Source: Scatophagus argus
Taxonomy: Eukaryota; Chordata; Actinopteri; Scatophagidae
Direction: 5' to 3'
Assembly (NCBI RefSeq): GCF_020382885.2
Contig: NC_058499.1
Span: 9,843,872 to 9,907,871, forward strand
Length of the DNA stretch: 64,000 nucleotides
The notes beneath the pieces were generated by a model that was not told the origin of the DNA, did no database searches, and saw only the letters and a program-made list of their open reading frames with translations. Position numbers and translations under genes: made by a program. Position 1 is the stretch's first letter, and each line of letters starts with the position of its first letter. Shown one piece after another: positions 9,225 to 41,078 of the stretch.

Positions 9225-9300
9225 ATGAGGTGGGAATGTGTGTGGTTGTCTTTTCTTGCTTTGTCTGTTGCCAGTGTCATCGATGTCCAAGCCAGACTGG
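9225..9300 (+). other. muc2: muc2 exon 1: signal peptide
   Basis: Encodes [18 protein letters not shown] and a short tail, with a hydrophobic core and small residues before the likely cleavage site. It ends in phase 1 at the donor GTAAGACTG. Confidence 0.88.
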
Positions 9301-12300
9301 GTAAGACTGAAATAGTTTTGGATACTGTGAGCCACTTTAAAAGACTATCTGAATGAATTTTTCTGCTTTATTTCTGCATACAAATGTATAATGTACAGCA
9401 CTGCCTCAAATATCACTCAATTTAACTGTTTTTGGCACTTATTCCCCAGTTCACAACCATGTCAGCAGCATCTGCAGCACATGGGGCAGAGAGCACTTCA
9501 AGACATTTGATGGTGATATATACCAGTTCCCTGGCATGTGTGAATACAACTTGGTATCAGACTGCCACGAGTCCTACCAGGAGTTCTCAGTGCACATGAA
9601 GAAGACGGAGAATGATGGAAACCCCACAGTGGGTTACGTGGTGATCACCATCGCTGACCTGTCATTCAAACTCACTAAGAATCTGGTCACTGTCAACAGC
9701 CTCCCGTGAGTAGAAAAGCCATAGTTGTATTTTTCTTTTATGATATTGTGCAGAGTATTGTGCATTATAATAAAAATAAATAAATAACACTCCCTCTTTT
9801 ACAGTATCAAAATGCCATACTACAATGCAGGGGTACAAGTGGAAAAAAATGCCATTTACATCAAGCTCCAGTCTAAAGTTGGCATCACTGTCATGTGGAA
9901 CCGAGATGATGCAGTCACGGTAAAAGTTTATATTTTCTTTATCTTTGGTACTCCATATCTGCTAAAAACAGATTGTTGTATGATGCACCATGCGGAAAAT
10001 ATATCTATATCTCCTTAAAATCTTGTGTATGAGGCTCTTACAATAGACTTTGTAATGCACAGAAAATTTTGTGCTCCTCTCCCTTTTTTAGTTTTCCCTT
10101 TTTTAAAAAAGATATTTTTTAGAAAAGAAGGAATAGTCTCATGGAATCAATAAAGTACACACTTCTCTTTCAGTCAATCTCCTTTCTTGCTTGAATTTTA
10201 ATTCAACTACATTTGCTCAAACTATGATCGTATCAAATCACGATACATTAATTTTTAACTTTTTTAAAAAGTTGTTGCAAACTCTTGCTGTGTTGTAGGT
10301 TGAACTGGATCACGACTATTTTAACCGTACTTGTGGACTTTGTGGAGACTACAATGGTGTCTCTGTCTACAATGAGTTCATTCATTATGGTACATAATGG
10401 TTATTCACTTTATGCAGTAATGTATTTCAACAATCATATGCTGTTACATTTTACACTATAATTATCATATGAAATGCAGATCGCAAAATTAGCCCCATTG
10501 AGTTTGGCAACAAACATAAAATTCATCGTCCAAATGAGGATTGTGAGGACCCCTATGAAGAGGAAGATGAATCACGTGAGGCTCGGTCTGTGCCGGATTC
10601 ATGCAAGGAGTTTGTGAGTGTTTTTATTATTACCTATTACTAGGGATAGTAATATTTGGTGATATGGCCCAAACATTTGTATTTCCAATGGAGTAACTTT
10701 GTCGTTATTACTCTTTTTTCCATTTTAGCAAACCATCTGTGACCAGAGGCTGCGTTCAGAGTCCTGGAGCTCCTGCACTGAACTGGTTAACCCTGAGTCT
10801 TATATTGAGGCCTGTGTGCAGGACATGTGTAGCTGCGACAACAGCACAAGCGATTTCTGTCTCTGCAGGACACTGTCTGAGTTCTCTCGACAGTGTTCTC
10901 ACGCTGGAGGGCACCCTCCCAACTGGAGGACACCTCAGTTCTGTGGTAATATTTTGTGTTTTGTCGTCAGCTATATCTTTTATATGGCACTGAACTCAGC
11001 CAAGTGAAAAACAACTAATTTTAATAGTTTTAAATGTAAGTTTAAAAGGTACTTTGTGCCAAGCATATTACATGAATGAATTAAATGAATTAAAATTACA
11101 AAAAATCAGCTGTTGTTGTACTCAAATGAGTTACTTCTATACAGATATACTACTGAATAATTCATGTAAATATACATTTATCTTCGGTCATTTCTATGGC
11201 ACCATATCTTCACAGCAATACAATGCCCATTCAACATGGTTTATGAAGAGACTGGCTCCCCATGCATGGAAACATGTACACATCTAGACACAGGTTCACT
11301 GTGTGAGGACCACAAACTGGACGGCTGCTTCTGTCCTCCTGGTTAGTGCTGTTCACATGTGCATACTATAATTAATGTTACCCATTATTTAGACTTAATA
11401 ACCTTCTTCTTCTAGTCTGTCAGTGTTCATGTTCATATCACATATGTCCACTTCAGGGACTGTGCTTGATGATATTTCCAAGAGAGGGTGCATCAATCAG
11501 TCTGAATGTCAGTGCAAACATGACAAAATCTATAACCCTGGTGAGGTTTATCGACAGGACACAGAGGAATGGTATGTCAAATATTTTTCATAATATCAAC
11601 ATAATATTTTGTCCAGTCTCAACTGTTTTTTGTGTACGTTAACTTAAATTATTTTGGTTGCTTCAGTACATGTTTTGAGGGTAAATGGTATTGTGAGAGT
11701 CTTGAAACACCGGCTACATGCGCAGTTGAAGAGGGGTCACATGTAACTACCTTTGATGGGAAAACATACACCTTCCACGGAGACTGTTACTACACCCTAG
11801 CCAAAGTGGACAGCAGGGTGAGCGAATGAGTTGTACTTTTTAAAAAATTAAATATAAATGTCAAAATTATATTATATATATTATTATAACTATATATATA
11901 TATATATATTACTTATTTAATTGTTCTCACACTATTTATGTTTCAGGATGATGCAAGTCCAAAGTTTACAATCCAGGTTCAGTTGGTGCCATGTGCAAAT
12001 CAGAAGTTTGACACTTGTCTTAAAACCCTTAAAATCATTCTGAACAATGACAAAAACAATGTGAGTGAAAGCCAGTAAAGAAGACTGTAATCATCAATCA
12101 GTTCAATATATATGCAATATGCATCAATATAGTGATCAATTCTGTTTTTATCCAGGTATTAATGTTCACTTCTGAAGGCACAGTAAAGCAAAATATGCAG
12201 ACCATCGGTTTGCCATATCAGTCAGGTTGGTTAGAAAACTCTGAATGAAGCATCTTGTTGTCATCTTTCTTTTAAACTATGACATCAGCAAATGATCTGA

Positions 12301-15300
12301 TGGTTTTTTGTATTGTTCTTTATTCAAAGGTGGCATCAACATATTCCACGCTTCATCTTTTCACATCCTGCTGCAGACCACTTTTGGGTTGCAAATTCAG
12401 ATCCAGCATGTGCCTGTCATGCAAGTGTATGTCAGTCTAGAGCAGAGCTACAGAACAAAGACACGTGGTAAGTTTCCATTTGTCTTCACATGAAGCGCTG
12501 GCATCATCTAAACATATTCCAGAATATGGCACATTCACAATAAATTATTAATTGTGGTTTGCTTGAAGATGACAGCAGTAATGTTGATTTTTTAGTGTAC
12601 TATGAAATAATATTTAATATACATGGTTGTTGCAAATGAAACCACACCAACATGTTAGGGATGATGCCAGACAAAAGGTGAGTCCTTAAAGCAGAAACAC
12701 ACACACTGACACAGTTTGTCAATAAACAGAAAACACTTAGGCCAGAGACCCATACAAAAACGTCTGGTCCAGAAAAATGCTGAGAGAACAAAGGGTGCTG
12801 TGGGAAAAAAATCACTGGGAGGAAGCCAATGAGGAGCTCAAGGAAGTAATTGGGGAGGCTGGACGTGTTACAACTTATGGACCAAGGCAGAGGAAAAAAG
12901 AATTCTAAAGAGTACAAAAATTATCAAAAAAAAAAAAAAGTCTTCTCAAGGAGTAGGCCTGCAGCATCTTTACTACAAAAGTGAGAGCATGATCTGGTGG
13001 AGATGGAGAGGAAAAGCCAGCTTCTTATACTGCAGATGAGGGGTGGAGTTGATTGGAAATTGAACCGAGTGGTGTTGAACAGATGGACACAATATTTATT
13101 CTATTGTAATTCTATATTAAATTATATGTATATTCTATAATATATTATAATATATAATATAAAGGTATACAAGCTTATGTTAATAATTCTTGTTCACTTC
13201 AGTAATTACTCCTCTAAAGAACATGTCCATGGCTCCATCTTCTTTCTCCAAACCCTGAATGCTTCCAAATAACAAAGCAAAATACATGCAGATTAATACA
13301 TAAGTAAATGAAATAGGTGGTAGAGTGGATATGGCTTGCATCAACACTGAGAATTTGTTTAATTATAATTCACATCTTCTATTTTCCTCTTTCTGTTTTT
13401 CTGTATTTAAGTGTTGATATAATACTAAGTTAATTATAAAATGTTTGGTTTCTTCAGGTTTATGTGGGAACTTCAATATGGCCCTGTCTGATGACATGAA
13501 GTCTCCTCAGGGGATTGTTGAGGGAACGCCAGCAACTTTTTGTAACTCCTGGAAAGTTAACCCCACGTGTGGAGACAGAGAGGAAAGACTTGATGACCCC
13601 TGTTCCCTCAGTGTGGAAAATGGTAAAAAAGCACTGACTGAATATTCTACTGTTCATCGACTGTTTTATTTGTTTGTTTGTGTACTTAGATTCTCAGCTT
13701 TAAAGGCATAATATGTAGAATATTTCTGATGAATTTGAAGTTCATCTGCAGTCAAGAAAGAGATTTTATGCTATTATTTATTAGTTTAACAGCTATTGCA
13801 TTATAAAGCAGAAATAAACACACCTACACCTCTGCACAGCCCTCTGGATTTGATGTGAATTAAGTAAAAGTCCTTTCCTTAGTGCCTCTGCTCAGCCTGC
13901 CTGCCTGCCTGTGTGGAGCTCGCAAATACCCACATCTTGTTAAGACAGACAGAGATATGGAGACAGTGAACTTGGTGATCACATTTTTATAAGATCCTCA
14001 CCTTGGACCGTGCTGCATGCCCAGACACATCCTAATACACCAAAGTACTAAAAGATAAGGAAATATAGGCAGAGGGCAGGGAAAATGCTGTGAATGGCAT
14101 GTTTAACTGGACAGTGCAACACATTGCATATTTCTGCCTTACATTAAAAAATGACAAATTATTGTTCATCCAATCTTAGAGAATTATGCCAGACATTGGT
14201 GTGCCTTGCTACTAAATCCAAACAGCACTTTTGGACAGTGTCACTCAGTGGTGGATCCTGAGATGTACCACAAGGTAAAGCAAAGCCTTCCAGTGTGTCT
14301 TTCATTTCATTGCATTTTGATAGCACTGTAATTTTTAAAAAGTGTTTCCTGCCTTCTGCAGCGATGTACCTATGCCAGCTGTAATTGTGAGAAGAGCGAG
14401 GCCTGCCTGTGTGCTGTATTGTCCTCCTACGCACGGGCTTGTGCATCAAAAGGAGTGTTCTTGACAGGCTGGAGAGAGAACGTGTGTGGTAAGGATTATG
14501 ATGAATGTGATGACCATCTTCCCTTTCATTGATTAGTCATAAAGATATTAAGTCATTGTCATATTGTACACAAAACAGATAAATACTCAAAGAGCTGCCC
14601 AGCATCTCAGACCTTCTCATACAAGCATCAGAGATGCCAGCTGACTTGCAAGTCGCTGGGCTCCACACAGCAGAGTTGCAGCTCTGACTTCCTGCCTGTG
14701 GATGGCTGCTCCTGCTCTGAGGGTTCCTACCTGAATGAAAATGGAGTCTGTGTCCCCATGGCCAAATGTTCCTGCTACCATAACGAAGTCTACATTAAGG
14801 CAGGAAAGTCTATCAGCATCAAAGACGACCACTGGTGAGTCAGTTGTTCCCAACTTGGGACTGGACTTCAATTCAGTTATCTTAAACAAAGGATTTAGCA
14901 TGAATATAATAACTGCAGTACATAAAATTGACAGGAACTCTAATTTTTATTTTGTTGTCGCATGTATCTTGAATTTCCCTTGGGATCAATAAAGTATCTA
15001 TCTATCTATCTGTCTGTCTATCTATCTATCTATCCATCTTTGGTGTCTTTCTTTAGCGTGTGCACCAATGGAGATCTTCATTGCCATTCTTGGAGATTCC
15101 GCTCATCAAGTAAGCTTTTATTTATTTGTTTGTTTGTTTGTGTTTTGTTTCTGTACTGTACCACAACAGAAGCAATTGGTTGATACATTGTATATTAAAT
15201 CAGTCTCTAATTCTGTTACAGCCTGTCCCATTCCAAAAGAATACTTCAACTGCTCCACTGCAAGCACAGGGGAACTTGGAGTGCAATGTGCTCGAACATG

Positions 15301-18300
15301 TTTAAATCTGGACAACGATGATTGTGTGAGCTATTTATCAGCCATGTTTCAAATAAGTGGATCTAATATTTATTTTCTGAATTTAATTTAACTGATGTAG
15401 TACTGTGTATAGTTACAGTCCATAAAGTAGATTTGAGAGAGTTTAAACAGTAACTTCTAATACTACCAGTAATGTTTTCTCATTTTCCATCACTGTGATC
15501 TTTCTATCATCCCAGGACTCCACCGAGTGTGAATCTGGCTGTCAGTGTCCAAACGGCCTTCTTGATGATGGCAAAGGTTCCTGTGTGACAGAGAATGACT
15601 GTCCATGCAAGCATGATGGGTACCTTTATGCCCCTGGAGCACAAATCCCCAACGAATGCAACACCTGGTATGACCTAGTTTTTAATCAGATACATATATA
15701 GCATTGTGAACAAACAGAATAAATCACATTTGCCTGCAGGTTTTACCTGATTGCAGTATTCAAAACATTTTGTATTTTTAATTTAGTCATGTTTTCTTCT
15801 ACATCTAGTACCTGCAAAAGTGGAAAATGGAAGTGCACACACAAGAAATGCCCAGGAACTTGCATTATTTATGGGAGTGGTCACTACAATACATTTGATA
15901 AGAAAACATATGGGTTTCAAGGAGATTGCGCCTTTGTTGCTGTCAAGGTAAACAATGCATGCCAAAACCATCCACATTACAGGCGGCAACCAAAATAACT
16001 CTCTCATTTACTTCTCCTTATATATTGGACACTGAGCAGTTTACATTGGTGAGCAGTAAAATGAGATGCCCATGCTCACTTATGATTGTTTTGCATCATT
16101 ACTGACAATTGTCAAATGGTGCAACTGTAATTTTTGCACCTATAAAATATGCTGCAAATATGTGAGATGAACCATTTTCATGTTGATTACACTAATTAAG
16201 GCAAGCAGAAGAAGTTTCATACTGAAAAAATACTTAACTTAATACGCAACTATTTTTTTCTGGATCCTTAGACTTTAACACAGGTCAGTTTGACCCGTTA
16301 CATAACAGGAGGGTTAAGATGACTGAAAAATGCAGAGAACAATATCAATTGCACTTTTATTTTATGTTCTAGCTTTTCTTTAACAATCGTAAAGTATTGT
16401 GGACTAAGGGCCAAGCTGAAGTTTGATTTAATTTAAGTGGTCACTGTCTGCTATGAAGCAAATATGTAAATTGTTTAATGAATCTCTCTCTCTTTTAAGA
16501 ACAAATGTGGCAATAAAACAGTACAGGACAACTTTGGAGTCATCACGGAAAATGTACCATGTGGATCTACCGGCACAACTTGCTCTAAAACTGTCAGAAT
16601 CCAACTAGGGGTAAGACCTCATACCAACAAGTATTCTGTGACTAAAATATTGGACAAAAAATTAAACAAATGAATGTCATACATCAAGCTACAGTTTCTG
16701 TAATACAATTAAAGCAACTGAAATCTTCTTAACATTACAGCGAAAGGAAATCAAACTATCAAAGGGTAAATATGAAGAGCAGGACCTGGTAAATGGCACT
16801 CTGATTCAGTACGAAATAAGGGAAGTTGGCATGTATCTGGTGATAGAATCAGCCATTGGTCTGGCAGTGATTTGGGATCGCAAAACTGCTGTTCGCATAC
16901 TCCTGGAACCAGAGCACAGCGTGAGTCAAAGTGACTGATGATGATCGAAATTTCTTACAGGACAATTTAGGGCTTTGAGTTGAGTTTTGATATCCTGCAT
17001 CATCTGTCATCTGTAGTTTATGTCCTTGCCAGTCTTTGCCAATCAACTATAAAAACTTTGGGCAATCAATGCTATTGATGTACATTATATTAACATCACA
17101 GAAAAAGTCCTTGAGGGGCTCATTACAGCAATCATAACATATGGAGAAAATAGAATACAACACAATAAAAGTGTATTAATGCCCAGAAAATGCTTGTTCC
17201 AGTGCAGAAGAGTATTGATGCTGAATGATGCCCTCATGTAAAACAAGTGCCTGACTCCTTTTGTCTAACTGTACAGGGAGAGGTATGTGGTCTGTGTGGC
17301 AACTTTGATGGTGATGGACAGAACGACTTCACCACCAAGGGTCAGCTAGTAGTGAGCAATGTATTAGAATTTGCAAACAGCTGGAAAGTGTCAAGCGGCT
17401 GCCCAGATTTGGAAACAAATGTTGATCCTTGTGGAGCAAGACCCCATCGACATCACTGGGCGAAACTGATGTGCAGCATTATAACTGGAGAGACTTTCAA
17501 AGCCTGCCACAATACGGTAATAACATTTTTTTTCTTATTTGTCATAGTTCCATAGTTGAAAACATTACACACCTTTTATTAAATCCGTCATGAATTTTGA
17601 TAACAGGTTGATTCCCGTCCATTTTATGAAAATTGTGTGAAAGACTCATGTGCCTGCGACTCTGGAGGAGACTGTGAGTGTTTCTGCACAGCAGTTGCAG
17701 CTTATGCTCAGGCTTGTAATGAGGCTGGTGTCTGTGTTGCATGGAGAACTCCGGACATATGTCGTAAGTTAACATCAATTTTACCCTCATATTAAACCTC
17801 AAGCTTTCTCAGCCTTTTCTGGCCAAGATGCTGCTTTTAGATCCCCACATTAGAGATTCAGAAATTAAACGAGGTGCATGATATATAGATGAATATGGTT
17901 TCTTTTTTCATAAACAGGACATGTAATATTGAGCCTTGTTTTTATTTTCAATTATATAATTAATGTATAATACATAATTCCTTTAGCTCAGTTTGTATTT
18001 AAATTAAGTGTAATTAATGTTATAAACTGGATCTATGATAGTTTTCTGTCATTTGGAGTGAGTGAGAATTTTAATTGACATCAGTATATAGCATTTATAT
18101 TTGTGTTCTCTTTCATTTTATACAGATATCAGTTTACTTATTTGAATCAACATTCCCTGTATTTAAACATAACATACTTTGCATCTTTTCCTGCTAGCTG
18201 TCTTTTGTGATTACCACAACAACCCAGGTGAATGCAACTGGCACTACAGCCCTTGTCACACACCCTGCTATAAGACCTGTTTAAATCCACAAGGAAATTG

Positions 18301-21300
18301 TAGCAACCCTATACCCAACTTGGAAGGTAAGAAGTTAACTCACAATGCCTCACCTTACCTCTGAATAATGTACCAGTTAAAATCTTGAATGTTGAATTGA
18401 GCTAGTTTGGCTTACTTTATGCACAAAATGAAAAACATTATTCAAAGACCAACTTTGGTGTCAAAGAATCTCTATGATGATGTTTTTGCTGTGATTGTTG
18501 CAGGGTGTTACCCATTATGCCCGCCAGATAAGCCCATATTTGATGAGGTTACCAAGGAGTGTGTGGAGGAATGTGCCGGCACGACAACTTTACCCCCGTC
18601 TTCCACAACCACAGAATTAACAACAACAACAACGGAATCCACTACTTCAACTGAGAAGCCAACTACACCTACAACCGAAAAAACAACCACAATTACCAAG
18701 TCTACAGCACCACCAACTGAATCCACTACTTCAACTGAGAGGCCAACTACAACTACAACAAAAGGACCAATCACAACCACAACTGAAGCACCAACCACAA
18801 CCACAACATCTACAAAACCACCAACTGAATCCACTACTTCAACTGAGAGGCCAACTACAACTACAACCACAAAGTCGACAACCACACCGACTGAATCCCC
18901 AACTACAGTCACTATAACTCCTGCCTCTACAACGTGTGTTCCAGCATGTGAGTGGTCAGACTGGTATGATGTGCACAACCCACAAGAAGATAAAAGTGAC
19001 TGGGAAACCTATAAGAACATCACAAATAGTGGGCTAGAAATATGTGACAATCCCTGGGAAATTGACTGCAGAGCCACAGTTAATCCTGACATCAACTTCA
19101 GTGACTTTGTGAATGAAACTGGCCAAGTTGTTACTTGTGATGTGGAATATGGTTTAATATGTAGACAAAAGGACCAGACCACTCGTCCATGGAAGTGCTT
19201 CAACTATAAGATCAGAGTATGCTGCCCAGTATGTTTACAACAGTCTACAACACCACCAACTGAATCCACTACTCCAACTGAGAGGCCAACTACAACTACA
19301 ACTACAACTGAAGCACCAACCACAACCACAACATCTACAAAACCACCAACCGAATCCACTACTCCAACTGAGAAGCCAACTACACCTACAACCGAAAAAA
19401 CAACCACAACTACCAAGTCGACAGCACCACCAACTGAACCCACTACTCCAACTGAGAAGCCAACTACACCTACAACCGAAAAAACAACCACAACTACCAA
19501 GTCGACAGCACCACCAACTGAACCCACTACTCCAACTGAGAGGCCAACTACAACTAAAGGACCAACCACAACCACAACTGAAGCACCAACCACAACCACA
19601 ACATCTACAAAACCACCAATTGAACCCACTACTCCAACTGAGAAGCCAACTACACCTACAACTGAAAAAACAACCACAACTACCAAGTCGACAGCACCAC
19701 CAACTGAACCCACTACTTCAACTGAGAAGCCAACTACACCTACAACCGAGTCAACAACCACAACTACCAAGTCGACAGCACCACCAACTGAACCCACTAC
19801 TTCAACTGAGAAGCCAACTGCAACTACAACTAAAGGACCAACCGCAACCACAACTGAAGCACCAACCACAACTACAACATCTACAAAACCACCAACTGAA
19901 TCCACTACTCCAACTGAGAAGCCAACTACACCTACAACCGAAAAAACAACCACAACTACCAAGTCGACAGCACCACCAACTGAACCCACTACTTCAACTG
20001 AGAAGCCAACTACAACTGAAGCACCAACCACAACCACATCTACAAAACCACCAACCGAATCCACTACTCCAACTGAGAAGCCAACTACACCTACAACCGA
20101 AAAAAACAACCACAACTACCAAGTCGACAGCACCACCAACTGAACCCACTACTCCAACTGAGAGGCCAACTACAACTAAAGGACCAACCACAACTGAAGC
20201 ACCAACCACAACCACAACATCTACAAAACCACCAATTGAACCCACTACTCCAACTGAGAAGCCAACTACACCTACAACTGAAAAAACAACCACAACTACC
20301 AAGTCGACAGCACCACCAACTGAACCCACTACTTCAACTGAGAAGCCAACTGCAACTACAACTAAAGGACCAACCGCAACCACAACTGAAGCACCAACCA
20401 CAACCACAACATCTACAAAACCACCAACTGAATCCACTACTCCAACTGAGAAGCCAGCTACACCTACAACCGAAAAAACAACCACAACTACCAAGTCGAC
20501 AGCACCACCAACTGAACCCACTTCTTCAACTGAGAAGCCAACTGCAACTACAACTAAAGGACCAACCGCAACCACAACTGAAGCACCAACCACAACTACA
20601 ACATCTACAAAACCACCAACTGAACCCACTACTCCAACTGAGAAGCCAACTACACCTACAACCGAAAAAACAACCACAACTACCAAGTCGACAGCACCAC
20701 CAACTGAACCCACTACTCCAACTGAGAGGCCAACTACAACTAAAGGACCAACCACAACTGAAGCACCAACCACAACCACAACATCTACAAAACCACCAAT
20801 TGAACCCACTACTCCAACTGAGAAGCCAACTACACCTACAACTGAAAAAACAACCACAACTCCCAAGTCGACAGCACCACCAACTGAACCCACTACTTCA
20901 ACTGAGAAGCCAACTGCAACTACAACTAAAGGACCAACCGCAACCACAACTGAAGCACCAACCACAACTACAACATCTACAAAACCACCAACTGAATCCA
21001 CTACTCCAACTGAGAAGCCAGCTACACCTACAACCGAAAAAACAACCACAACTACCAAGTCGACAGCACCACCAACTGAACCCACTTCTTCAACTGAGAA
21101 GCCAACTGCAACTACAACTAAAGGACCAACCCCAACCACAACTGAAGCACCAACCACAACTACAACATCTACAAAACCACCAACTGAACCCACTACTCCA
21201 ACTGAGAAGCCAACTACACCTACAACTGAAAAAACAACCACAACTACCAAGTCGACAGCACCACCAACTGAACCCACTACTTCAACTGAGAAGCCAACTA

Positions 21301-24300
21301 CAGCTGAAGCACCAACCACAACCACATCTACAAAACCACCAACCGAATCCACTACTCCAACTGAGAAGCCAACTACACCTACAACCGAAAAAACAACCAC
21401 AACTACCAAGTCTACAGCACCATCAACTGAACCCACTACTCCAACTGAGAGGCCAACTACAACTAAAGGACCAACCACAACCACAACTGAAGCACCAACC
21501 ACAACCACAACATCTACAAAACCACCAATTGAACCCACTACTCCAACTGAGAAGCCAACTACACCTACAACTGAAAAAACAACCACAACTATCAAGTCGA
21601 CAGCACCACCAACTGAACCCACTACTTCAACTGAGAAGCCAACTACAACTGAAGCACCAACCACAACCACATCTACAAAACCACCAACCGAATCCACTAC
21701 TCCAACTGAGAAGCCAACTACACCTACAACCGAAAAAACAACCACAACTACCAAGTCGACAGCACCACCAACTGAACCCACTACTTCAACTGAGAAGCCA
21801 ACTACAACTGAAGCACCAACCACAACCACATTATCTACAAAACCACCAATCGAACCCACTACTCCAACTGAGAAGCCAACTACACCTACAACTGAAAAAA
21901 CAACCACAACTACCAAGTCGACAGCACCACCAACTGAACCCAGTACTTCAACTGAGAAGCCAACTACAACTGAAGCACCAACCACAACCACATCTACAAA
22001 ACCACCAACCGAATCCACTACTCCAACTGAGAAGCCAACTACACCTACAACCGAAAAAACAACCACAACTACCAAGTCGACAGCACCACCAACTGAACCC
22101 ACTACTTCCACTGAGAAGCCAACTACAACTGAAGCACCAACCACAACCACATTATCTACAAAACCACCAATCGAATCCACTACTCCAACTGAGACGCCAA
22201 CTACAACTGAAAAAACAACCACAACTACCAAGTCTACAGCACCACCAACTGAACCCACTACTCCAACTGAGAGGCCAACTACAACTACAACCACAAAGTC
22301 TACAACCACACAGACTGAATCCCCAACTACAGTCACTATAACTCCTGCCTCTACAACATGTTTTCCACCATGTGAGTGGTCAGACTGGTATGATGTGCAC
22401 AACCCACGAGAAGATAAATGTGACTGGGAAACCTATGAGAACATCACAAATAGTGGGCTAGAAATATGTGACAATCCCTTGCAAATTGACTGCAGATCCA
22501 CAGATAATCCTGACATGAACTTCAGTCACTTTGTGGAACAAACTAAGCAAGTTGTTTATTGTGATGTTGAATATGGTTTAATATGTAGACAACAGGACCA
22601 GACCAGTCGTCCATTTAAGTGTTTCAACTATAAGATCAGAGTATGTTGCCCAGGATGTCGACCCTCAGTTTCTTCTACTGCACCTCCTACCACTAAAACT
22701 GAAACACCAATCATAACCACAAAATCTACAACACCACCAACTGAACCTATGACTACAACAAAAGAACCAACCATAACCACAAGGTCTACAACACCACCAA
22801 CTGAACCCACTACTCCAACTGAGAAGCCAACTACAACTGAAGCACCAACCACAACCACAACATCTACAATACCACCAACTGAACCTACTACTCCAACTGC
22901 GAAGCCAACTACACCTACAACTGAAAAAACAACCACAACTACAAAGTCGACAGCACCACCAACTGAACCCACTACTTCAACTGAGAAGCCAACTACAGCT
23001 GAAGCACCAACCACAACCACAACATCTACAAAACCACCAACCGAATCCACTACTCCAACTGAGAAGCCAACTACAACTGAAAAAACAACCACAACTACCA
23101 AGTCAACAGCACCACCAACTGAACCCACTACTTCAACTGAGAAGCCAACTGCAACTACAACTAAAGGACCAACCACAACCACAACTGAAACACCAACCAC
23201 AACCACAACATCTACAAAACCACCAATTGAACCCACTACTCCAACTGAGAAGCCAACTACACCTACAACCGAAAAAACAACCACAACTACCAAGTCGACA
23301 GCACCACCAACTGAACCCACTACTTCAACTGAGAAGCCAACTACAACTGAAGCACCAACCACAACCACATCTACAAAACCACCAACCGAATCCACTACTC
23401 CAACTGAGAAGCCAACTACACCTACAACTGAAAAAACAACCACAACTACCAAGTCGACAGCACCACCAACTGAACCCACTACTCCAACTGAGAAGCCAAC
23501 TACAACTGAAGCACCCACCACAACCACAACATCTACAATACCACCAACTGAACCCACTACTCCAACTGAGAAGCCAACTACACCTACAACTGAAAAAACA
23601 ACCACAACTACAAAGTCGACAGCACCACCAACTGAACCCACTACTTCAACTGAGAAGCCAACTACAGCTGAAGCACCAACCACAACCACAACATCTACAA
23701 AACCACCAACCGAATCCACTACTCCAACTGAGAAGCCAACTACACCTACAACTGAAAAAACAACCACAACTACCAAGTCGACAGCACCACCAACTGAACC
23801 CACTACTCCAACTGAGAAGCCAACTACAACTAAAGGACCAACCACAACCACAACCGAAGCACCAACCACAACTACAACATCTACAAAACCACCAACTGAA
23901 CCCACTACTCCAACTGAGAGGCCAACTACAACTAAAGGACCAATCACAACCACAACTGAAGCACCAACCACAACTACAACATCTACAAAACCACCAACTG
24001 GACCCACTACTCCAACTGAGAAGCCAACTACACCTACAACTGAAAAAACAACCACAACTACCAAGTCGACAGCACCACCAACTGAACCCACTACTTCAAC
24101 TGAGAAGCCAACTACAACTGAAGCACCAACCACAACTACAACATCTACAAAACCACCAACTGAACCCACTACTCCAACTGAGAAGCCAACTACACCTACA
24201 ACCGAAAAAACAACCACAACTACCAAGTCGACAGCACCACCAACTGAACCCACGACTTCAACTGAGAAGCCAACTGCAACTACAACTAAAGGACCAACTG

Positions 24301-27300
24301 CAACCACAACTGAAGCACCAACCACAACTACAACATCTACAAAACCACCAACTGAACCCACTACTCCAACTGAGAAGCCAACTACACCTACAACTGAAAA
24401 AACAACCACAACTACCAAGTCGACAGCACCACCAACTGAACCCACTACTTCAACTGAGAAGCCAACTACAGCTGAAGCACCAACCACAACCACATCTACA
24501 AAACCACCAACCGAATCCACTACTCCAACTGAGAAGCCAACTACACCTACAACCGAAAAAACAACCACAACTACCAAGTCGACAGCACCATCAACTGAAC
24601 CCTCTACTCCAACTGAGAGGCCAACTACAACTAAAGGACCAACCACAACCACAACTGAAGCACCAACCACAACCACAACATCTACAAAACCACCAATTGA
24701 ACCCACTACTCCAACTGAGAAGCCAACTACACCTACAACTGAAAAAACAACCACAACTACCAAGTCAACAGCACCACCAACTGAACCCACTACTTCAACT
24801 GAGAAGCCAACTACAATTGAAGCACCAACCACAACCACATCTACAAAACCACCAACCGAACCCACTACTCCAACTGAGAAGCCAACTACACCTACAACCG
24901 AAAAAACAACCACAACTACCAAGTCGACAGCACCACCAACTGAACCCACTACTTCAACTGAGAAGCCAACTGCAACTACAACTAAAGGACCAACCGCAAC
25001 CACAACTGAAGCACCAACCACAACTACAACATCTACAAAACCACCAACTGAACCCACTACTCCAACTGAGAAGCCAACTACACCTACAACCGAAAAAACA
25101 ACCACAACTACCAAGTCGACAGCACCACCAACTGAACCCACTACTTCAACTGAGAAGCCAACTGCAACTACAACTAAAGGACCAACCGCAACCACAACTG
25201 AAGCACCAACCACAACCACATCTACAAAACCACCAACTGAACCCACTACTCCAACTGAGAAGCCAACTACACCTACAACTGAAAAAACAACCACAACTAC
25301 CAAGTCGACAGCACCACCAACTGAACCCACTACTTCAACTGAGAAGACAACTACAACTGAAGCACCAACCACAACCACAACATCTACAATACCACCAACT
25401 GAACCCACTACTTCAACTGAGAAGCCAACTGCAACTACAACTAAAGGACCAACCACAACCACAACTGAAGCACCAACCACAACCACAACATCTACAAAAC
25501 CACCAATTGAACCCACTACTCCAACTGAGAAGCCAACTACACCTACAACTGAAAAAACAACCACAACTACCAAGTCGACAGCACCACCAACTGAACCCAC
25601 TACTCCAACTGAGAAGCCAACTACACCTACAACTGAAAAAACAACCACAACTACCAAGTCGACAGCACCACCAACTGAACCCACTACTTCAACTGAGAAG
25701 CCAACTACAGCTGAAGCACCAACCACAACCACATCTACAAAACCACCAACCGAACCCACTACTCCAACTGAGAAGCCAACTACACCTACAACCGAAAAAA
25801 CAACCACAACTACCAAGTCGACAGCACCATCAACTGAACCCACTACTCCAACTGAGAGGCCAACTACAACTAAAGGATCAACCACAACCACAACTGAAGC
25901 ACCAACCACAACCACAACATCTACAAAACCACCAATTGAACCCACTACTCCAACTGAGAAGCCAACTACACCTACAACTGAAAAAACAACCACAACTACC
26001 AAGTCGACAGCACCACCAACTGAACCCACTACTTCAACTGAGAAGCCAACTACAACTGAAGCACCAACCACAACCACATCTACAAAACCACCAACCGAAC
26101 CCACTACTCCAACTGAGAAGCCAACTACACCTACAACTGAAAAAACAACCACAACTACCAAGTCGACAGCACCACCAACTGAACCCACTACTTCAACTGA
26201 GAAGCCAACTGCAACTACAACTAAAGGACCAACCGCAACCACAACTGAAGCACCAACCACAACTACAACATCTACAAAACCACCAACTGAACCCACTACT
26301 CCAACTGAGAAGCCAACTACACCTACAACCGAAAAAACAACCACAACTACCAAGTCGACAGCACCACCAACTGAACCCACTACTTCAACTGAGAAGCCAA
26401 CTGCAACTACAACTAAAGGACCAACCGCAACCACAACTGAAGCACCAACCACAACCACATCTACAAAACCACCAACTGAACCCACTACTCCAACTGAGAA
26501 GCCAACTACACCTACAACTGAAAAAACAACCACAACTACCAAGTCGACAGCACCACCAACTGAACCCACTACTTCAACTGAGAAGCCAACTACAACTGAA
26601 GCACCAACCACAACCACAACATCTACAATACCACCAACTGAACCCACTACTTCAACTGAGAAGCCAACTGCAACTACAACTAAAGGACCAACCACAACCA
26701 CAACTGAAGCACCAACCACAACCACAACATCTACAAAACCACCAATTGAACCCACTACTCCAACTGAGAAGCCAACTACACCTACAACTGAAAAAACAAC
26801 CACAACTACCAAGTCGACAGCACCACCAACTGAACCCACTACTTCAACTGAGAAGCCAACTACAACTGAAGCACCAACCACAACCACAACATCTACAATA
26901 CCACCAACTGAACCCACTACTTCAACTGAGAAGCCAACTACAACTGAAGCACCAACCACAACATCTACAATACCACCAACTGAACCCACTACTTCAACTG
27001 AGAAGCCAACTACACCTACAACTGAAAAAACAACCACAACTACCAAGTCGACAGCACCACCAACTGAACCCACTACTTCAACTGAGAAGCCAACTGCAAC
27101 TACAACTAAAGGACCAACCGCAACCACAACTGAAGCACCAACCACAACTACAACATCTACAAAACCACCAACTGAACCCACTACTCCAACTGAGAAGCCA
27201 ACTACAACTACAACCGAGAAAACAACCACAACTACCAAGTCGACAGCACCACCAACTGAACCCACTACTTCAACTGAGAAGTCAACTGCAACTACAACTA

Positions 27301-30300
27301 AAGGACCAACCGCAACCACAACTGAAGCACCAACCACAACTACAACATCTACAAAACCACCAACTGAACCCACTACTCCAACTGAGAAGCCAACTACACC
27401 TACAACTGAAAAAACAACCACAACTACCAAGTCTACAGCACCACCAACTGAACCCACTACTCCAACTGAGAGGCCAACTACAACTAAAGGACCAATCACA
27501 ACCACAACTGAAGCACCAACCACAACCACAACATCTACAAAACCACCAATTGAACCCACTACTCCAACTGAGAAGCCAACTACACCTACAACCGAAAAAA
27601 CAACCACAACTACCAAGTCGACAGCACCACCAACTGAACCCACTACTTCAACTGAGAAGCCAACTACAACTGAAGCACCAACCACAACCACAACATCTAC
27701 AATACCACCAACTGAACCCAGTACTTCAACTGAGAAGCCAACTGCAACTACAACTAAAGGACCAACCACAACCACAACTGAAGCACCAACCACAACCACA
27801 ACATCTACAAAACCACCAACTGAACCCAGTACTTCAACTGAGAAGCCAACTGCAACTACAACTAAAGGACCAACCACAACCACAACTGAAGCACCAACCA
27901 CAACTACAACATCTACAAAACCACCAACTGAACCCACTACTCCAACTGAGAAGCCAACTACACCTACAACTGAAAAAACAACCACAACTACCAAGTCTAC
28001 AGCACCACCAACTGAACCCACTACTCCAACTGAGAGGCCAACTACAACTAAAGGACCAATCACAACCACAACTGAAGCACCAACCACAACCACAACATCT
28101 ACAAAACCACCAATTGAACCCACTACTCCAACTGAGAAGCCAACTACACCTACAACCGAAAAAACAACCACAACTACCAAGTCGACAGCACCACCAACTG
28201 AACCCACTACTTCAACTGAGAAGCCAACTACAACTGAAGCACCAACCACAACCACAACATCTACAATACCACCAACTGAACCCAGTACTTCAACTGAGAA
28301 GCCAACTGCAACTACAACTAAAGGACCAACCACAACCACAACTGAAGCACCAACCACAACCACAACATCTACAAAACCACCAACTGAACCCACTACTCCA
28401 ACTGAGAAGCCAACTACACCTACAACTGAAAAAACAACCACAACTACCAAGTCAACAGCACCACCAACTGAACCCACTACTTCAACTGAGACACCAACCA
28501 CAACTGAAGGGGTAATTACAGGTCCCACAGTGAGCCGACCAACTGTCCCTCAGATCGGCAACAATACAACACCAACTCCAACACCTTCTGTATCTATTTG
28601 CCCTGAATGGAATGTTACGGTAAGAATTTTAATATAGCTCACTCTTTAAAATATATGTAATTTTCTGTTATTCTTCAAGTAATTTTAAAAACACTACTTG
28701 AAAAGAAAACAAGCTTTCTTGCAGTTTTTGCAAATTTCTTGAAAATTTTGCTAACTTCCTTTTTTTTTGTCATTTTATAACAGCAAAATGAGACGTTCAT
28801 CATCTGCAACTGTACCATGGCCAAATGCATTGAGAACAATACAATTGAAATAATTCCATACGAATGCCCACCCCTTCAGAACATCACTTGTACTAATGGA
28901 AAGAAACCAGTTCTTGTGTATGATGAGCACCACTGCTGCCAATATTATGCTTGTGAATGTAAGCCATTTTGTGGATAAACAGATGTCTGACATATTTATT
29001 GAAAATTTCACTCTTTAATGACTTAAATTTTTATTTTTTTGTGGATCTCTTTGCAGGTGTATGTGAAGGCTGGGGAGATCCTCATTACATCACATTTGAT
29101 GGCCTGTACTACAGTTATCAAGGAAACTGTACTTATGTCTTAATGGAAGAGATTACTCCACGACATCACTTGAAGATTTATATTGACAATGTATTTTGTG
29201 ATCCCACTGAAGATGTTTCTTGTCCGCGATCGATCATTGTCGCATATGGATTTCAAGTTATTACACTCGTGAATCATAACCTAATTGGAACTGCAAAATT
29301 AGAGGTATATATGTTTGTATTAAAAGTTTACTGTAAATTCTGAAAAAGTCACTGGACTAATTTTAATTAATAGTGGCAGTGCAGATGAAATGGACATAAT
29401 GGATAATTTTTTTATTGTGTTTTATTTATTTTCTTGTCATATAATGTTTTTGCTTTTTTGTACTTGTAGGCACTCAAAGATGGAGTCCGTTTGAAACTAC
29501 CTTATTCACAGCAAGGTGTTAAGGTCCTGAGTTCTGGCATCAACTTGATTTTTGAGATCCCTCGTATAAAAGTAGTCATTACATTTGGAATAACTGGTTT
29601 CAGTGTCAATCTTCCATATAAGCACTTTGGCAAAAACACACAAGGCCATTGTGGTAAGAATATCGCTCTCTCTGCAGTGGCTATTTTGGTAAATCATTTG
29701 AAACTAGACAGTGACCTTAACTGTTTTGTGACTCTGCTGGCAGGAACATGCACTAACAACCAGGCTGATGATTGCATGTTGCCTGGAGGCAAGCTGGTTG
29801 AAAGTTGTTCTGTGATGGCTGATTATTGGTCTGCAACACTCACTGGCCAACCTGAGTGCCAGATACCACCCACTGTGCCACCCACCAATGTACCTGAACC
29901 ACCACCAACCTTGCAAACTCCATGCAAGCCAGACTCCATATGTGATCTCCTTAAGAGCAGGTAGACATTATCTAATTCACTGTAGTAGTTAACATTCATC
30001 CCCATAACTCTGACATATTGCAGTTAAAACACATTAACTTTTTTATTTGTGTTTTTGTTTGTGCTTTACTTTCATAGTGTCTTTGCAGAGTGCCATCCTT
30101 ACGTCTCTCCTGACAAATTCTACAAAGGTTGTGTTTTTGATAGCTGCCATGTTTCTAACCCATCAATAGAGTGCACAAGTTTACAGACCTATGCTGCTGC
30201 CTGTGCTCAGGCTGGGATTTGCCTTCACTGGAGGAACCACACAAAACTTTGTAGTAAGCAACCCCTCATTTTACTGTCATAGATATATAGATACATAGAT

Positions 30301-33300
30301 AAATGTGAACAAGAGGGGTTACTCTTTCATTTTATTGCAACAAGCTGCTCCACATTTTATTATATACAGTGAATAGGCAGTATCTATTTTAAAAAGTTTT
30401 TTTTTTCCACTAATAGCAAATGAATGCCCATCAAACAAAATTTACAAACCATGTGGTCCTGCGGAGCAGCCAACCTGTGACGACAAGTAAGTGTGAACAA
30501 AAACAGTGTAATCATTTTACAGTTCACTGTGCACATTAGCATTTCCTGAGTTGAGGGTTGTGATGGATAGTTACATATCTCTTGTAGACAGCACAGAGTC
30601 AGTAAGTAGAGTAGAATGGAGTGTATCAAATGAACTGTTTTAGAGATCTGAAAGAAGATCTAAAAGAAATAGCACAAACTAACTGTTTATTTTCAATGAA
30701 TCACTGTTGCAGTAATAATGAACCATACCTGAATTACACCACTGAGGGCTGCTTTTGTCCTGATGGAATGAAACTCTTCAACAAGGAGTCTGGCATGTGT
30801 GTGAATAAGTGTGGTAGGTGTGGTGTATCTTCAAGTCTTAAATTGAGCTGAATATAAAATATCAGTCATGAAGTCCTACAAGATTGTTCATTTTTCAACA
30901 GGATGTCTTGACCCTGAGGGTATTCCTCGTGAGGTGAGCTAAGTTTTCTATTTGTGATCACTTAAAAGCCTGTGTTGTATGGTTGCAAGAGACAATTAAG
31001 TCACTGCTGTGGTTTAATCTTTCAGTTCAATGAGAGGTTTGAGTACAAATGTCAAAACTGCATCTGTGAGGAGTCCACCAAGACTGTGACATGTGTGCCT
31101 AAGAAGTGCCCAGCACAACCTCCTTTGAGCTGCAGTGATCCAGGGTTTGTCCTTGTCAACCAAACTAATCCATCCGACCACTGCTGTTCTACCATGGTTT
31201 GCCGTAAGACACAAAATCATTGCATGTTTGTATTCCAGATTTTTCAGAATGCTGTGCACCAATAACAATTCTTGAGGATGGCTCTTAACTATTCACTGTC
31301 ACCATTTTATTATCTTCAAAGAATGTCACAGCAACTCTTGCCCAGTCAAGGGCATAAAATGTCACATTGGATATATACCAGATGTCAGTGTTCCTGAGGG
31401 TAAATGCTGTCCAGAGTATACGTGTGGTGAGCTCATTAAGTCATAGCTTGAATTTATATAAAGCCTAATGATGAAAGGGACACTTTAACATAAGTTTCCT
31501 TGTCTTACTCTTTTCTAGAGCCTAAAAGAGTGTGTGTCCACAAAGAAGTTGAATACCAGGTAAATAAGAAATGGAAATGTACTGATTATGCATCACACAA
31601 TTTGTTAACGTATCACTATTGCTACCGTATTTTCCGGACTATAAGTCGCTACTTTTTTCTCACGCCTTCAACTCTGCGGCCTAAACAACGATGCGGCTAA
31701 TCTATAGATCTTTATGGGCTAACGGCCCAGTGATGCAAAGAGGAAGACACTAGTTTTAAGCGTAACTTTCAACAGTCATTTTGCGTGTTATGCACATACC
31801 ATCATCATGGAAAACACTCAAAAAAATGCATATGATGCAGCTTTTAAGTTAAAAGCAATCGAACTGGCTGTCCAAGAAGGAAATAGAGCTGCTGCACGTA
31901 AGCTTGGCATAAATGAATCAATGGTGAGACGTTGGAGACGGCAGCGTGAAGAACTGACGCAATGCAAAAAGACGACAAAAGCTTTCAGAGGTAATAAAAA
32001 CAGATGGCCCGGACTTGAAAACGTATGTCATGTTACAATGTGGACACCTGCGGCCTATATATGTACAAATATTTATTTATTTTTTTAATTTGGGGGGTTC
32101 GGCTTATACTCCGGTGCGTTCTATAGTCCAGGAAATACGGTATTTCATGATTTCTGCTGTGCTGCTACAGGTCTTTGTGGTTAGAAGTATGAATATATTT
32201 CTTCTTTATTTATTAGCCTGGTTCTTCAGTTCCTGTCCAAAAATGTCAGGATTGTACATGTACAGAAGTGGTTGACCCCAAGTCTAAGCTATTCAAGATA
32301 TCTTGTGAGTTTCAGCAATGTCAAACAAACTGCGACCTGGTAAGATAAATTACATTTATTATAATCAAGCACATGATAATGCTACTTGTTTCACTCAGAA
32401 TATTTTTACTGGAAGGATGAGCTTGTAAAAATACACTTGGCAACTCCTTCTCTTAGGGATATGAATATAAGGAAAAGGATGACGAATGCTGTGGGAGGTG
32501 TGTGCAGACACGTTGTGTTGTCAGTTTAAATGATAGCAAGCAGGTCTTGGAGGTAAGTTGGATTGTCTATGACTCCAGAAGTTCATGTGTAATTGTCTAT
32601 GGTTCCATGTTGATATCTGACTGCTCATCCATGTCAATGCCCTGCAGCAAGGACAAACCTGGTCACCACCTGAGAATAAGTGTGAGTTTTACACCTGTGT
32701 TAAGCATGGTGAGACTTTAACTATGGTCAGATCACAAATCATCTGCCCATCATTCCACCCAGACAACTGTGAACCTGTAAGTATCACTCTCAGCCAACTG
32801 GATTGACTGTGTCTGAGAACATGAGTTAAAAAAAGATTGCTGATGTTTCTTGGTTTTCCTCCATAGGACACAATTCAGACTGCAGCAGATGGCTGTTGTA
32901 AAATTTGTGAGTATGACATGTTATTTACTTTTAGAAGAGGGTACCGTTAAATGAAAAGCTAATTGTGTGTCTCTTTTGAAAAGGTGTGGAGAAGAATAAG
33001 GGCTGCAAGATAGCGTCCATGAAAACCAGGGTTTCACACAACGGCTGCCAGTCTTACGAGGAGGTTGATATTCCATATTGTGAAGGATCCTGCAACACTT
33101 TCACCAAGTAAGGATGACATTACTAATATTTCTAATTCCTCTGGAAAGTCACAAACCCATTACGTTTTGTGCAGTTTTTTGAGTGTATTAATCAGTCCTG
33201 CCTCTGCTTCTTTCAGGTACTCTGAATCAGCAGACTCTATGCTGCATTCCTGCTCCTGCTGTAAGGATACCCGCTCCAGCAATCGCACTCTTGACTTGCA

Positions 33301-33424
33301 CTGCTTGAATGGAGAGGTGATTCCCTTCACATACATGCACGTGGAGGAGTGTAACTGTGGCCACACACACTGCACCAGACCTCCTGCTCCTGTTCGCAGG
33401 AGGCGAGGCTTCACGCTGGTGTAA
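9225..33424 (+). CDS. muc2: Gel-forming mucin, Muc2-like, 43 coding exons, frameshift in giant exon
   Basis: Secreted, polymer-forming mucin. ATG at 9225 (context acaATGa) starts a hydrophobic signal peptide ending near residue 22; TAA is at 33422-33424. Joined exons give about 5,290 aa if the extra A at 20100-20106 is ignored. Domain order: signal, D1, D2, D'-D3, Thr/Pro-rich repeats with two CysD domains, D4 with GDPH, VWC modules, cystine knot. Muc2 rather than Muc5 identity rests on the C-terminus: [15 protein letters not shown], the CQDCTC module and the final SCSCCK knot follow human MUC2 as recalled. All junctions are GT-AG with consistent phase. Features odd for the family are a shortened third TIL, a missing pre-D4 module, an odd-cysteine CysD, and the one-base insertion that would truncate the protein at about 1,716 aa. 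A TATA box lies just upstream, and a polyadenylation signal follows at 33532. Confidence 0.9.
9450..11571 (+). other. muc2: muc2 D1 assembly (VWD1, C8, TIL), exons 2-8
   Basis: Exons 9450-9705, 9805-9919, 10299-10389, 10480-10613, 10729-10945, 11216-11341, 11457-11571. VWD1 opens with [14 protein letters not shown] and carries CGLCGDYNG in exon 4, the family CGLC motif. Exon 6 is a C8 domain ending [20 protein letters not shown]. Exons 7-8 are a TIL domain ([17 protein letters not shown]). In MUC2 and von Willebrand factor these N-terminal assemblies drive packing and disulphide-linked multimers in the late secretory pathway. Exon 4 uses a weak donor, GTACAT. Confidence 0.9.
11891..11909. repeat. 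TA microsatellite in muc2 intron 9
   Basis: A (TA)n run inside a very AT-rich intron. Confidence 0.8.
12468..13457 (+). other. muc2: Large muc2 intron 12 with possible unclassified repeat
   Basis: A 990-bp intron, long for this gene. The segment around 12600-13080 is GC-richer than its flanks, has a poly(A) tract near 12926-12940 and a chance open frame on the minus strand (12600-12917). It looks like inserted repeat DNA but I do not recognise a family. Confidence 0.4.
14962..15036 (+). repeat. Interspersed-repeat tail ending in (TATC)n, muc2 intron 16
   Basis: The words TTGAATTTCCCTTGGGATCAATAAAG followed by tetranucleotide TATC/TGTC repeats are the usual 3' end of a common fish retroposon tail. 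A short reverse-oriented relative is at 48200-48230. Confidence 0.6.
15057..18574 (+). other. muc2: muc2 D'-D3 assembly (TIL', VWD3, C8, shortened TIL), exons 17-26 start
   Basis: Exons 15057-15109, 15222-15325, 15516-15667, 15809-15947, 16500-16610, 16741-16920, 17277-17516, 17607-17763, 18198-18326, then 18504 onward. VWD3 has [15 protein letters not shown] and [16 protein letters not shown]8 has [21 protein letters not shown], very close to human MUC2. D3 in this family forms the covalent N-terminal linkages between subunits. The last TIL is cut short: after [15 protein letters not shown] and VEEC at 18572-18574 the frame goes straight into Thr/Pro repeats. The downstream mucin still has the remaining TIL and VWC-like exons. 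Confidence 0.88.
18935..19234 (+). other. muc2: CysD domain 1 of muc2
   Basis: About 100 codons from [16 protein letters not shown] to [13 protein letters not shown]. It has 10 cysteines, the WSDW (WxxW) motif that is a C-mannosylation site in this family, and an N-glycosylation sequon in KNITNSG. CysD domains interrupt mucin repeats and are thought to act as weak, non-covalent cross-links that set pore size. Confidence 0.92.
19235..22358 (+). repeat. muc2: Tandem coding repeats, muc2 block 2
   Basis: Imperfect modules between the two CysD domains. Two adjacent modules with gAAAAAAc at 19394 and 19478 are spaced 84 bp apart. Longer units insert [10 protein letters not shown] or EAPTTTT segments, so the array is a mixed higher-order repeat and not one clean period. 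Flanks resembling pieces of block 3 show the same module set. Confidence 0.88.
20100..20106 (+). other. muc2: One-base insertion (A7 instead of A6) breaking the muc2 frame
   Basis: Other copies of this module read ccgAAAAAAcaac with six A; here there are seven. The upstream frame then reads [13 protein letters not shown] and stops at 20141-20143. The downstream mucin frame resumes one base over and stays open to 28619. Removing one A restores one continuous frame through the whole exon and fits the phase of exon 27. The cause may be an assembly or sequencing error in a homopolymer, a polymorphism or a true null allele. Confidence 0.92.
22359..22658 (+). other. muc2: CysD domain 2 of muc2, with an extra cysteine
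   Basis: From [16 protein letters not shown] to [13 protein letters not shown]. Clearly paralogous to CysD 1 but diverged at many positions. Codon 22419-22421 is TGT (Cys) where domain 1 has AGT (Ser, 18995-18997), which gives 11 cysteines, an odd number. Confidence 0.92.
22659..28598 (+). repeat. muc2: Tandem coding repeats, muc2 block 3
   Basis: Nearly 6 kb of the same module set after CysD 2, beginning with a diverged lead-in ([19 protein letters not shown]) and ending with a non-repeat tail ([19 protein letters not shown]). The sense strand is largely A and C. Uninterrupted open frames also occur on the minus strand and in one other plus frame, a by-product of the composition. Confidence 0.9.
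28784..30813 (+). other. muc2: muc2 D4 assembly with GDPH autocleavage motif, exons 27-33
   Basis: Exons 28784-28958, 29057-29304, 29470-29653, 29744-29960, 30078-30253, 30417-30486, 30713-30813. Exon 27 is a VWC-like cysteine module ending CCQYYAC. Exon 28 has [14 protein letters not shown]; the GDPH motif at 29074-29085 is the site where human MUC2 and MUC5AC are cleaved between Asp and Pro, leaving a reactive anhydride. Exon 30 joins the end of VWD4 to a Pro-rich linker; exon 31 is a C8 domain ([26 protein letters not shown]). Exons 32-33 are TIL-like ([24 protein letters not shown]). Confidence 0.9.
30902..32906 (+). other. muc2: muc2 VWC modules and C-terminal cysteine-rich linker, exons 34-41
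   Basis: Exons 30902-30933, 31026-31203, 31322-31426, 31519-31559, 32217-32339, 32457-32552, 32648-32776, 32867-32906. Motifs: CQNCICEE...[47 protein letters not shown]. Their order and spacing follow the human MUC2 C-terminus. The intron between exons 37 and 38 holds a pogo-type transposon copy (31625-32140). Confidence 0.88.
31625..32140 (+). mobile_element. Non-autonomous pogo/Tc1-mariner-type DNA transposon in muc2 intron 37
   Basis: 516-bp element flanked by TA at 31623-31624 and 32141-32142. Its ends are inverted: ccgtattttccggactata on the left and tatagtccaggaaatacgg on the right. Between them, 31807-32088 encodes about 93 aa starting [20 protein letters not shown]. It has a helix-turn-helix of the Brinker/CENP-B type ([20 protein letters not shown]), as found at the N-terminus of pogo-like transposases in fish. 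The catalytic DDE part is absent, so the copy is an internal deletion derivative that would need a transposase in trans. Confidence 0.82.
32984..33424 (+). other. muc2: muc2 C-terminal cystine-knot domain, exons 42-43, with RRRR tail
   Basis: Exons 32984-33107 and 33217-33424. The knot runs from [16 protein letters not shown] to [11 protein letters not shown] with the SCSCCK signature. This domain dimerises mucin chains in the endoplasmic reticulum. The protein ends with [13 protein letters not shown]; four Arg codons lie at 33395-33406. Human MUC2 also has a basic tail after the knot. Confidence 0.92.
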
Positions 33425-39559: not shown

Positions 39560-41078
39560 AATAAAGAGTTAATAGTGGACTATAATCTAATCTAATAAAG
39601 TAATTATTATGGGCAATTTCAACATCCACGTAGACGATAGTAATGATAGCCTTTGCGTAGCATTTATCTCTCTATTAGATTCAATCGGCTTCTGTCAATG
39701 TGTACATAAACGCACTCACTGTTTTAATCACACTCTTGACCTTGTTCTGACATATGGCATTGAAGTAGAACATTTAATAATCTTTGAACAAAACCCTCTT
39801 CTATCTGACCATTGTTTAATAACTTTTGAATCTGTACTATTTGACTTCATACCACCAAGAAAAAACTAGTGCTGTGGCTAAATTTAAAGAAGCAGTTCTA
39901 TGGTCATTCACTTCAGCATCATGTCCAGATACCAGTGAACATTACAACAATCCCTCTCAAACTGACCATTTTGTGGACAGTGCTGCAAGCTCATTAAGAA
40001 CAACTATAGATTCTGTTGCCCCGCTAAAACAGAAACGCATAAAGCAAAAGAGACTTTCACCCTGGTATAATACAGATGTTCACAAATTAAAACAAAATGC
40101 GCAAAAACTTGAAAGGACATGGCGTTCCTCCAAACTTATTGAATCTTGCTCAATCTGGCAAGACAGTCCTATGGCCCTATGGACTGCCAGAGCAGCCTAT
40201 TACTCAAAGTTAATTGAAGATAACAAGCATAATCCTAGGTTTCTCTTCAGCACTGTACCAGGCCGAAAGGGAGCCATAGTGCTATCGAGCCTAGCATCCC
40301 TGTGACCCTCAGCAGCAATGACTTTATAACCTTTTTCAATTACAAGATTTTAATCATTAGAGACAAAATTCAACACCTACTGACCTCAGCTGGTACCAAT
40401 CGACATCCAAACACTGGAACTTTAAAACCAATGGTAGAAACAGGTAATCATCTTGACTGCTTTTCTCCTATTGACCCTCATCAGCTATATTCACTTATAT
40501 ATTCATCCAAGCCAACAACATGCCTCTTAGACCCCATCACTACTAAGCTACTCAAAGAAGTTTTACCCTTACTTAGCACCTGTCTATTAGACATGATCAA
40601 TCTGTCCCTAATAACAAGCTATGTGCCCCAGTCCTTTAAAGTAGCTGTAGTCAAGCCTCTCCTTGAAAAACACACACTTGACCCAGAGGTTTTAAGCAAC
40701 TATAGACCAATATCTAACCTTCCATTTCTTTCCAAGATCCTTGAAAGAGCAGTCGCCAATCAGCTATGTGACTTTCTTCAAAATAATAACTTTGACAATT
40801 TTTAATCTGGCTTTAGAGCCCATCATAGCACAGACAGGGAATTGGTCAAAGTCACAAGACAGTCAAACAAGAGACTTATCTCTGTCCTTATAAAAGGTGT
40901 TTTTTCCTCGCCACCGTCGCCAAGTGCTTGCTCAAGGGGGAATGTTGGGTTCTCTATATTACAATTTAGTTAACGAGTTTGGTCTAGACCTGCTCTAATT
41001 GAAAAGTGTCATGAGATAACTTTTGTTGTGGATTGGCTCAATATAAATAAACTGAATTGAACTGAATTGAATTGAATT
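39560..41078 (+). mobile_element. Broken L2-type LINE (5'-truncated, internally deleted)
   Basis: Endonuclease end: GNFNIHVDD, HTLDLVLTYGI and LSDHCLITF (39609-39860). A frameshift leads into 39840-40305 and a further one into 40302-40802, which reaches reverse-transcriptase start motifs YRPISNLPFLSKILER. A stop at 40803-40805 precedes SGFRAHHSTD. The rest of the RT is missing, and sequence near 40900 jumps to the typical 3' UTR (GCCAAGTGCTTGCTC, TCTAGACCTGCTCT, ATATAAATAAACTGAATTGAA) with a TTGAA-repeat tail. Inactive fossil. Confidence 0.8.

Follow-up and report, generated by a model that had tools for sequence, protein, structure and literature searches.

A seven-adenine tract that interrupts the reading frame of a muc2-type mucin array in Scatophagus argus: assembly error or recent allele?

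Does Scatophagus argus carry a broken muc2 gene, or does its genome assembly misstate an intact one? The question turns on a single base in a stretch of 64,000 nucleotides (C7:9,843,872-9,907,871), hereafter the window, in which two gel-forming mucin genes stand in tandem, both on the + strand. It had been predicted originally that one extra A within the array exon of the first gene breaks its reading frame, and that this reflects either a homopolymer error of the assembly or a haplotype encoding a truncated mucin. Both readings fit the results and both stay alive; we lean towards the error, and the animal's own muc2 gene is probably intact. The relevant features, in window coordinates, are the following.

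9225-33424, + strand: muc2-type gene, whole (splice-aware model, completed by hand)
9225-18326, + strand: 25 upstream coding exons (signal peptide, D1-D2-D'-D3), 3,511 nt, open (exon model)
18504-28619, + strand: giant PTS-array exon, 10,116 nt, with two CysD/WxxW domains (splice sites, PF13330 matches)
18953-19225 and 22377-22649, + strand: the CysD/WxxW domains of the array exon (Mucin2_WxxW, PF13330, matches)
20100-20106, + strand: A7 tract, the sole one among 46, the remaining 45 being A6 (sequence, tract count)
20107-20143, + strand: out-of-frame tail and stop TGA, the latter at 20141-20143 (translation of the model)
20665-20670, + strand: A6 tract in the nearest duplicate copy, offset 564 bp downstream (copy comparison)
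28784-33424, + strand: 17 downstream exons from the D4-type VWD region to the cystine knot, 748 aa, 2,247 nt, open (model, human MUC2 alignment)
42375-63966, + strand: second gel-forming mucin gene (muc5-like), with 35 exons totalling 13,048 nt inside the window and a model free of frame breaks (control)

Judged by its sequence, the gene at 9225-33424 is a MUC2-type gel-forming mucin. When the N-terminal D1-D2-D'-D3 region, taken from a previous model with 24 exons, was ranked against chains of solved structures, the best were those of human Mucin-2 (7pov/7a5o) at 1214.5 bits, followed by Mucin-5AC at 1095.4 bits and Mucin-5B at 1080.8 bits. The C-terminal part aligns to human MUC2 (7qcu) in a single stretch, residues 1-743 of 748 in the query corresponding to 49-798 of the chain. 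Pfam searches of ten stretches of the gene returned Mucin2_WxxW in the two array-exon stretches tested (PF13330, E 9.3e-24 and 1.6e-23), VWD four times, all outside the array exon, and one terminal Cys_knot. Three of the ten stretches matched no family, among them 28781-28975 and 30966-31262, so the VWC identity rests on the human MUC2 alignment. The order of D1-D3, CysD/PTS and C-terminal region and the continuous C-terminal alignment are shared with human MUC2 (PDB 7pov, 7a5o, 7qcu), whereas the PTS array is different and the frame is interrupted in the assembly. One intron of the gene holds an open frame at 31723-32085 with transposase-type helix-turn-helix matches (HTH_Tnp_1 / BrkDBD), probably a DNA-transposon remnant.

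The interruption itself is sharply defined. The array exon contains 46 tracts of at least six A in nearly the same context, and the count confirms that 45 of them are A6 and that the tract at 20100-20106 alone is A7. The distance from the end of one tract to the start of the next is a multiple of three in 45 of 45 intervals; between the first and the last tract the frame is therefore changed by tract length alone, and the seventh A is the sole frame-changing difference among the copies. The acceptor at 18504, carrying one base, fits the upstream frame, and the 25-exon N-terminal model continued into the array exon through the TGA at 20141-20143 encodes exactly 1,716 aa. From identical exon models the unshifted length is, by arithmetic, 5,290 aa, and the lengths of about 1,716 and 5,290 residues given in the original prediction are both reproduced. 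The claim that everything downstream stays open also stood: within the array the downstream frame runs for 2,837 codons without a stop to the donor after 28619, enters the exon at 28784 in phase 0 and continues through 748 residues in 17 exons. That donor and the acceptor before 28784 are in phase 0 in the downstream frame only, as expected if, in the terms of the prediction, the downstream splice phases need one A removed. The D4, VWC-type and cystine-knot regions all lie beyond the upstream-frame stop.

Outside this tract, the frames of the mucin genes that served as controls are intact in the models. Those of muc2 comprise 42 further exons, 5,758 nt in all and without a stop, and in a D1 exon (9805-9919) an A7 at 9843-9849, in the context GAA AAA AAC, causes no frame break. 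The 8.1-kb array exon of the muc5-like gene, modelled by hand as a single open frame, holds two A6 and two A7 tracts and is open, and a third mucin exon with 11 CysD matches (C1:2827117-2832819) forms one open frame of 1,901 codons. The control models require open frames by construction, and small breaks could hide outside the parts aligned to human MUC2. The assembly was also searched for CysD domains, with 28 of 28 candidates scored and counts that are lower bounds; each muc2 CysD was found at one place, on C7, with no second genome place for either. Exact-pattern scans of viral contigs and prokaryote genome contigs found no stray copies. Weak CysD matches, some with internal stops, occur at C19:7271089-7272565 and C8:4198952-4202945; the stops may reflect introns, old copies or additional breaks of frame.

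On balance, the extra A is probably a homopolymer-length error of the assembly consensus in a near-identical tandem array. This weighting is a judgement; the assembled letters by themselves cannot separate an error from a young allele. Reads from the array would align ambiguously among copies with few differences, and such ambiguity would make polishing and consensus calling unreliable for the length of any one A tract. The 46 near-identical tracts in one exon would offer many chances for a miscall, and a single miscall would suffice to break the 5,290-residue frame. We favour the error because the two other mucin arrays examined are intact and because premature stops have a precedent in assemblies of human MUC5B (PMC10983947). 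The long-read preprint on that gene predicts a premature stop in 16 of 206 assembled haplotypes, and its authors hypothesize assembly artefacts arising from homopolymers of the VNTR exon; on reassembly of eight samples the open frame was regained in three, the available text not reporting the other five as restored (PMC10983947). The two cases have in common a gel-forming mucin, a large central VNTR exon, homopolymers and a premature stop. They differ in that the MUC5B study concerns human, many haplotypes and some reassembled samples, whereas here there is one assembly and one tract, a short A6 (PMC10983947). In a SMRT-based study of mucin domains, every frameshift described for the pipeline result came from single-nucleotide runs (PMC9712336), and the Polypolish paper describes homopolymer errors as often surviving short-read polishing in repeats of bacterial genomes (PMC8812927). 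The available text of a paper on the central exons of human MUC2 and MUC6 contained no frameshift terms (PMC6269512).

Within the locus, the error is also favoured by the fact that one tract in 46 deviates, by one base, while the nearest duplicate copy has A6, and by a coding sequence that is open throughout downstream, with 3' exons that align to human MUC2 in one stretch. Several observations count in the other direction. The high contiguity of the assembly (570,666,677 bases, or 570.7 Mb, in 48 contigs) suggests good long reads, a run of six A is short, no such error is seen in the remaining 45 tracts or in the other coding exons examined, and five of the eight reassembled MUC5B samples are not reported as regained. 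An illustrative calculation with assumed rates gives an error probability anywhere from 0.5% to 98%; with at most 1e-5 consensus errors per A6 tract, it tips towards a real allele.

How long a real frame break could have persisted is limited by the sequence around it. The copy 564 bp downstream differs from the A7 copy at 2 positions in the 64 nt to the left and at 4 in the 600 nt to the right; it has A6, and hence the extra A, if real, postdates that duplication. Downstream of the A7, 1,061 single-base changes could create a stop (722 in the array and 339 in the 3' exons). A neutrally evolving sequence would be expected to acquire one such stop by about 0.28% divergence and three, the customary 95% bound, by about 0.85%. 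Since none of these positions has been hit, neutral loss is limited to less than about 0.85% divergence, with which a young allele is still compatible. The open downstream frame alone does not favour or prove error over a young allele. Around the 46 tracts, minor variants fall at first, second and third codon positions in 42, 17 and 61 cells, a pattern that fits coding constraint and is weakened by concerted evolution, and hence no proof. Pairwise comparison of the downstream copies gives 793 synonymous and 1,565 non-synonymous codon differences, which do not point to strong purifying selection on array residues.

Replication slippage from A6 to A7 on a haplotype that now encodes a 1,716-residue muc2 would account for the same facts, and we regard such a real and recent +1 allele as a serious possibility, albeit a distinctly less probable one than an error. 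An array with 46 A tracts able to slip is a plausible mutational target, the open downstream frame permits a young neutral loss, and the A6 of the 564-bp duplicate implies a change more recent than that duplication. In the CysD search each of the two muc2 domains appeared at one genome place, which leaves no allelic copy to compare. Going by mammals, an animal should pay heavily for losing muc2 completely, and alleles of this kind should therefore be rare. The same kind of event is known from the human MUC1 VNTR, where an extra C is added to the C7 of one repeat unit (PMC5843638, PMC9379575, PMC7248079). The C7-to-C8 change of ADTKD-MUC1 resembles the present one in that a homopolymer within a single VNTR unit gains one base, and is described as hard to call with short reads (PMC5843638, PMC9379575). 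MUC1, however, is a transmembrane mucin whose shifted frame stops only beyond the VNTR and yields a neoprotein (PMC5843638, PMC9379575), whereas the shifted muc2 frame stops 12 codons on, so that no neoprotein like that of MUC1 runs through the array, and the extra base is known from the assembly alone. A product of this length would comprise D1-D3, one CysD and part of the PTS region, and would lack the D4, VWC-type and knot regions. The two ends of a mucin chain have known roles, and going by these the truncated product could at best cap mucin chains. Because 17 introns follow the stop, nonsense-mediated decay of the transcript would be expected at least in part, although stops in long exons are described as partly evading it (PMC12477815).

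The remaining explanations all appear very improbable. Recoding, programmed or incidental, could restore the frame through polymerase slippage on the A7 or ribosomal slippage at GAA AAA AAC; we give it little credence, slightly more than the two explanations that follow it. The upstream frame at the tract reads A AAA AAC, matching the X XXY YYZ pattern of -1 slip sites (PMC8254509). The plastid study that describes this pattern found frameshifts in oligoA tracts to be recoded, also where one A had been inserted, if less well than where two had, and cites a human APOB frameshift that is partly rescued, presumably by slippage during transcription; in its own results an A8 tract did not suffice for effective transcriptional slippage (PMC8254509). 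A -1 slip at the muc2 tract, moreover, misses the mucin frame and enters the third frame, which stays open over 744 codons as far as 22338, a position within the array exon, and rescue would require +1 or -2. The RNA that follows the tract lacks structure (-3.8 kcal/mol, z +1.35), with 185 of 200 shuffled sequences folding at least as well. Programming is also implausible with A6 in 45 of 46 tracts, and in a D1 exon the frame simply continues through an A7 in the identical context. Programmed -1 frameshifting was rejected on these grounds, that the -1 frame does not regain the mucin frame and that no stimulatory structure follows. Less credible still is a cryptic intron that removes the tract in frame, the array exon being really two exons. 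On paper 4,899 GT-AG pairs would restore the frame, the best of them joining 18947 to 22654, but so large a raw count is expected in a 10-kb exon, the A6 copies have no need of such an intron, and the best pair would excise 3.7 kb including both CysD domains. With a score of 0.7, the best acceptor in the array falls inside the span of the modelled acceptors (-0.4 to 3.7), so that scores alone do not exclude it; splice rescue was rejected on weak acceptors together with the loss of both CysD domains. Equally doubtful is the notion that muc2 is an older pseudogene. A frame break is indeed present in one exon, but about 10.8 kb of downstream coding sequence contains no second disruption, despite the 1,061 single changes that could have made a stop, and the idea was rejected with the downstream gene open and aligned to human MUC2.

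The break belongs to a known kind, a change of homopolymer length within the tandem array of a mucin, lying most likely in the consensus and possibly in the animal. If the consensus error we favour is the explanation, a gene model taken straight from the assembly would lose about two thirds of the mucin or split the gene, and the locus would be an example of a highly contiguous assembly that misstates a mucin array. The original warning that automatic annotation would probably split the gene or add a false intron is reasonable. A real allele would instead give the MUC1 frameshift a counterpart in an animal, here in a gut-type barrier mucin, and would make it possible to examine directly how mucin arrays tolerate or purge slippage of their A tracts.

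The array responds asymmetrically to slippage in the two directions. At each of the 46 muc2 A tracts, the existing A7 among them, a +1 slip meets a stop after exactly 12 codons, while a -1 slip at the 40 downstream tracts leaves 26 to 1,861 codons open, none reaching the exon end, and at four of the five upstream tracts the frame stays open as far as the A7. The early +1 stop follows from codon choice: ACT before Glu writes TGA in that frame, and ACT accounts for 225 of the 252 Thr codons that precede Glu in the part of the muc2 array downstream of the A7, against 3 of 179 in the muc5-like array, where the codon is mostly ACA. As the copies are homogenised, the ACT bias amounts to few independent events and is no evidence of selection. 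Tentatively, and with slightly greater reserve than for a recent allele as such, the A7 may be a real segregating allele of an array whose 46 tracts form a standing target for slippage. In such an array +1 slips would be closed by TGA after 12 codons and -1 slips at the 40 downstream tracts would run for 26-1,861 codons of Gln/Leu/Pro/His-rich sequence, and unequal exchange could delete or restore broken units.

The muc5-like gene lies directly downstream of muc2 in the same orientation, and its model reaches the end of the window; for the 447 N-terminal residues tested, the best chain was Mucin-5AC. Its array exon has a duplicated block at 51999-53687, with an offset of 939 bp and 750 bp exactly identical, and two CysD matches in the block stand 939 bp apart. 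Between the two mucin genes, a weak endonuclease-reverse-transcriptase match at 39591-39866, below the Pfam cut-off, probably marks a decayed LINE fragment.
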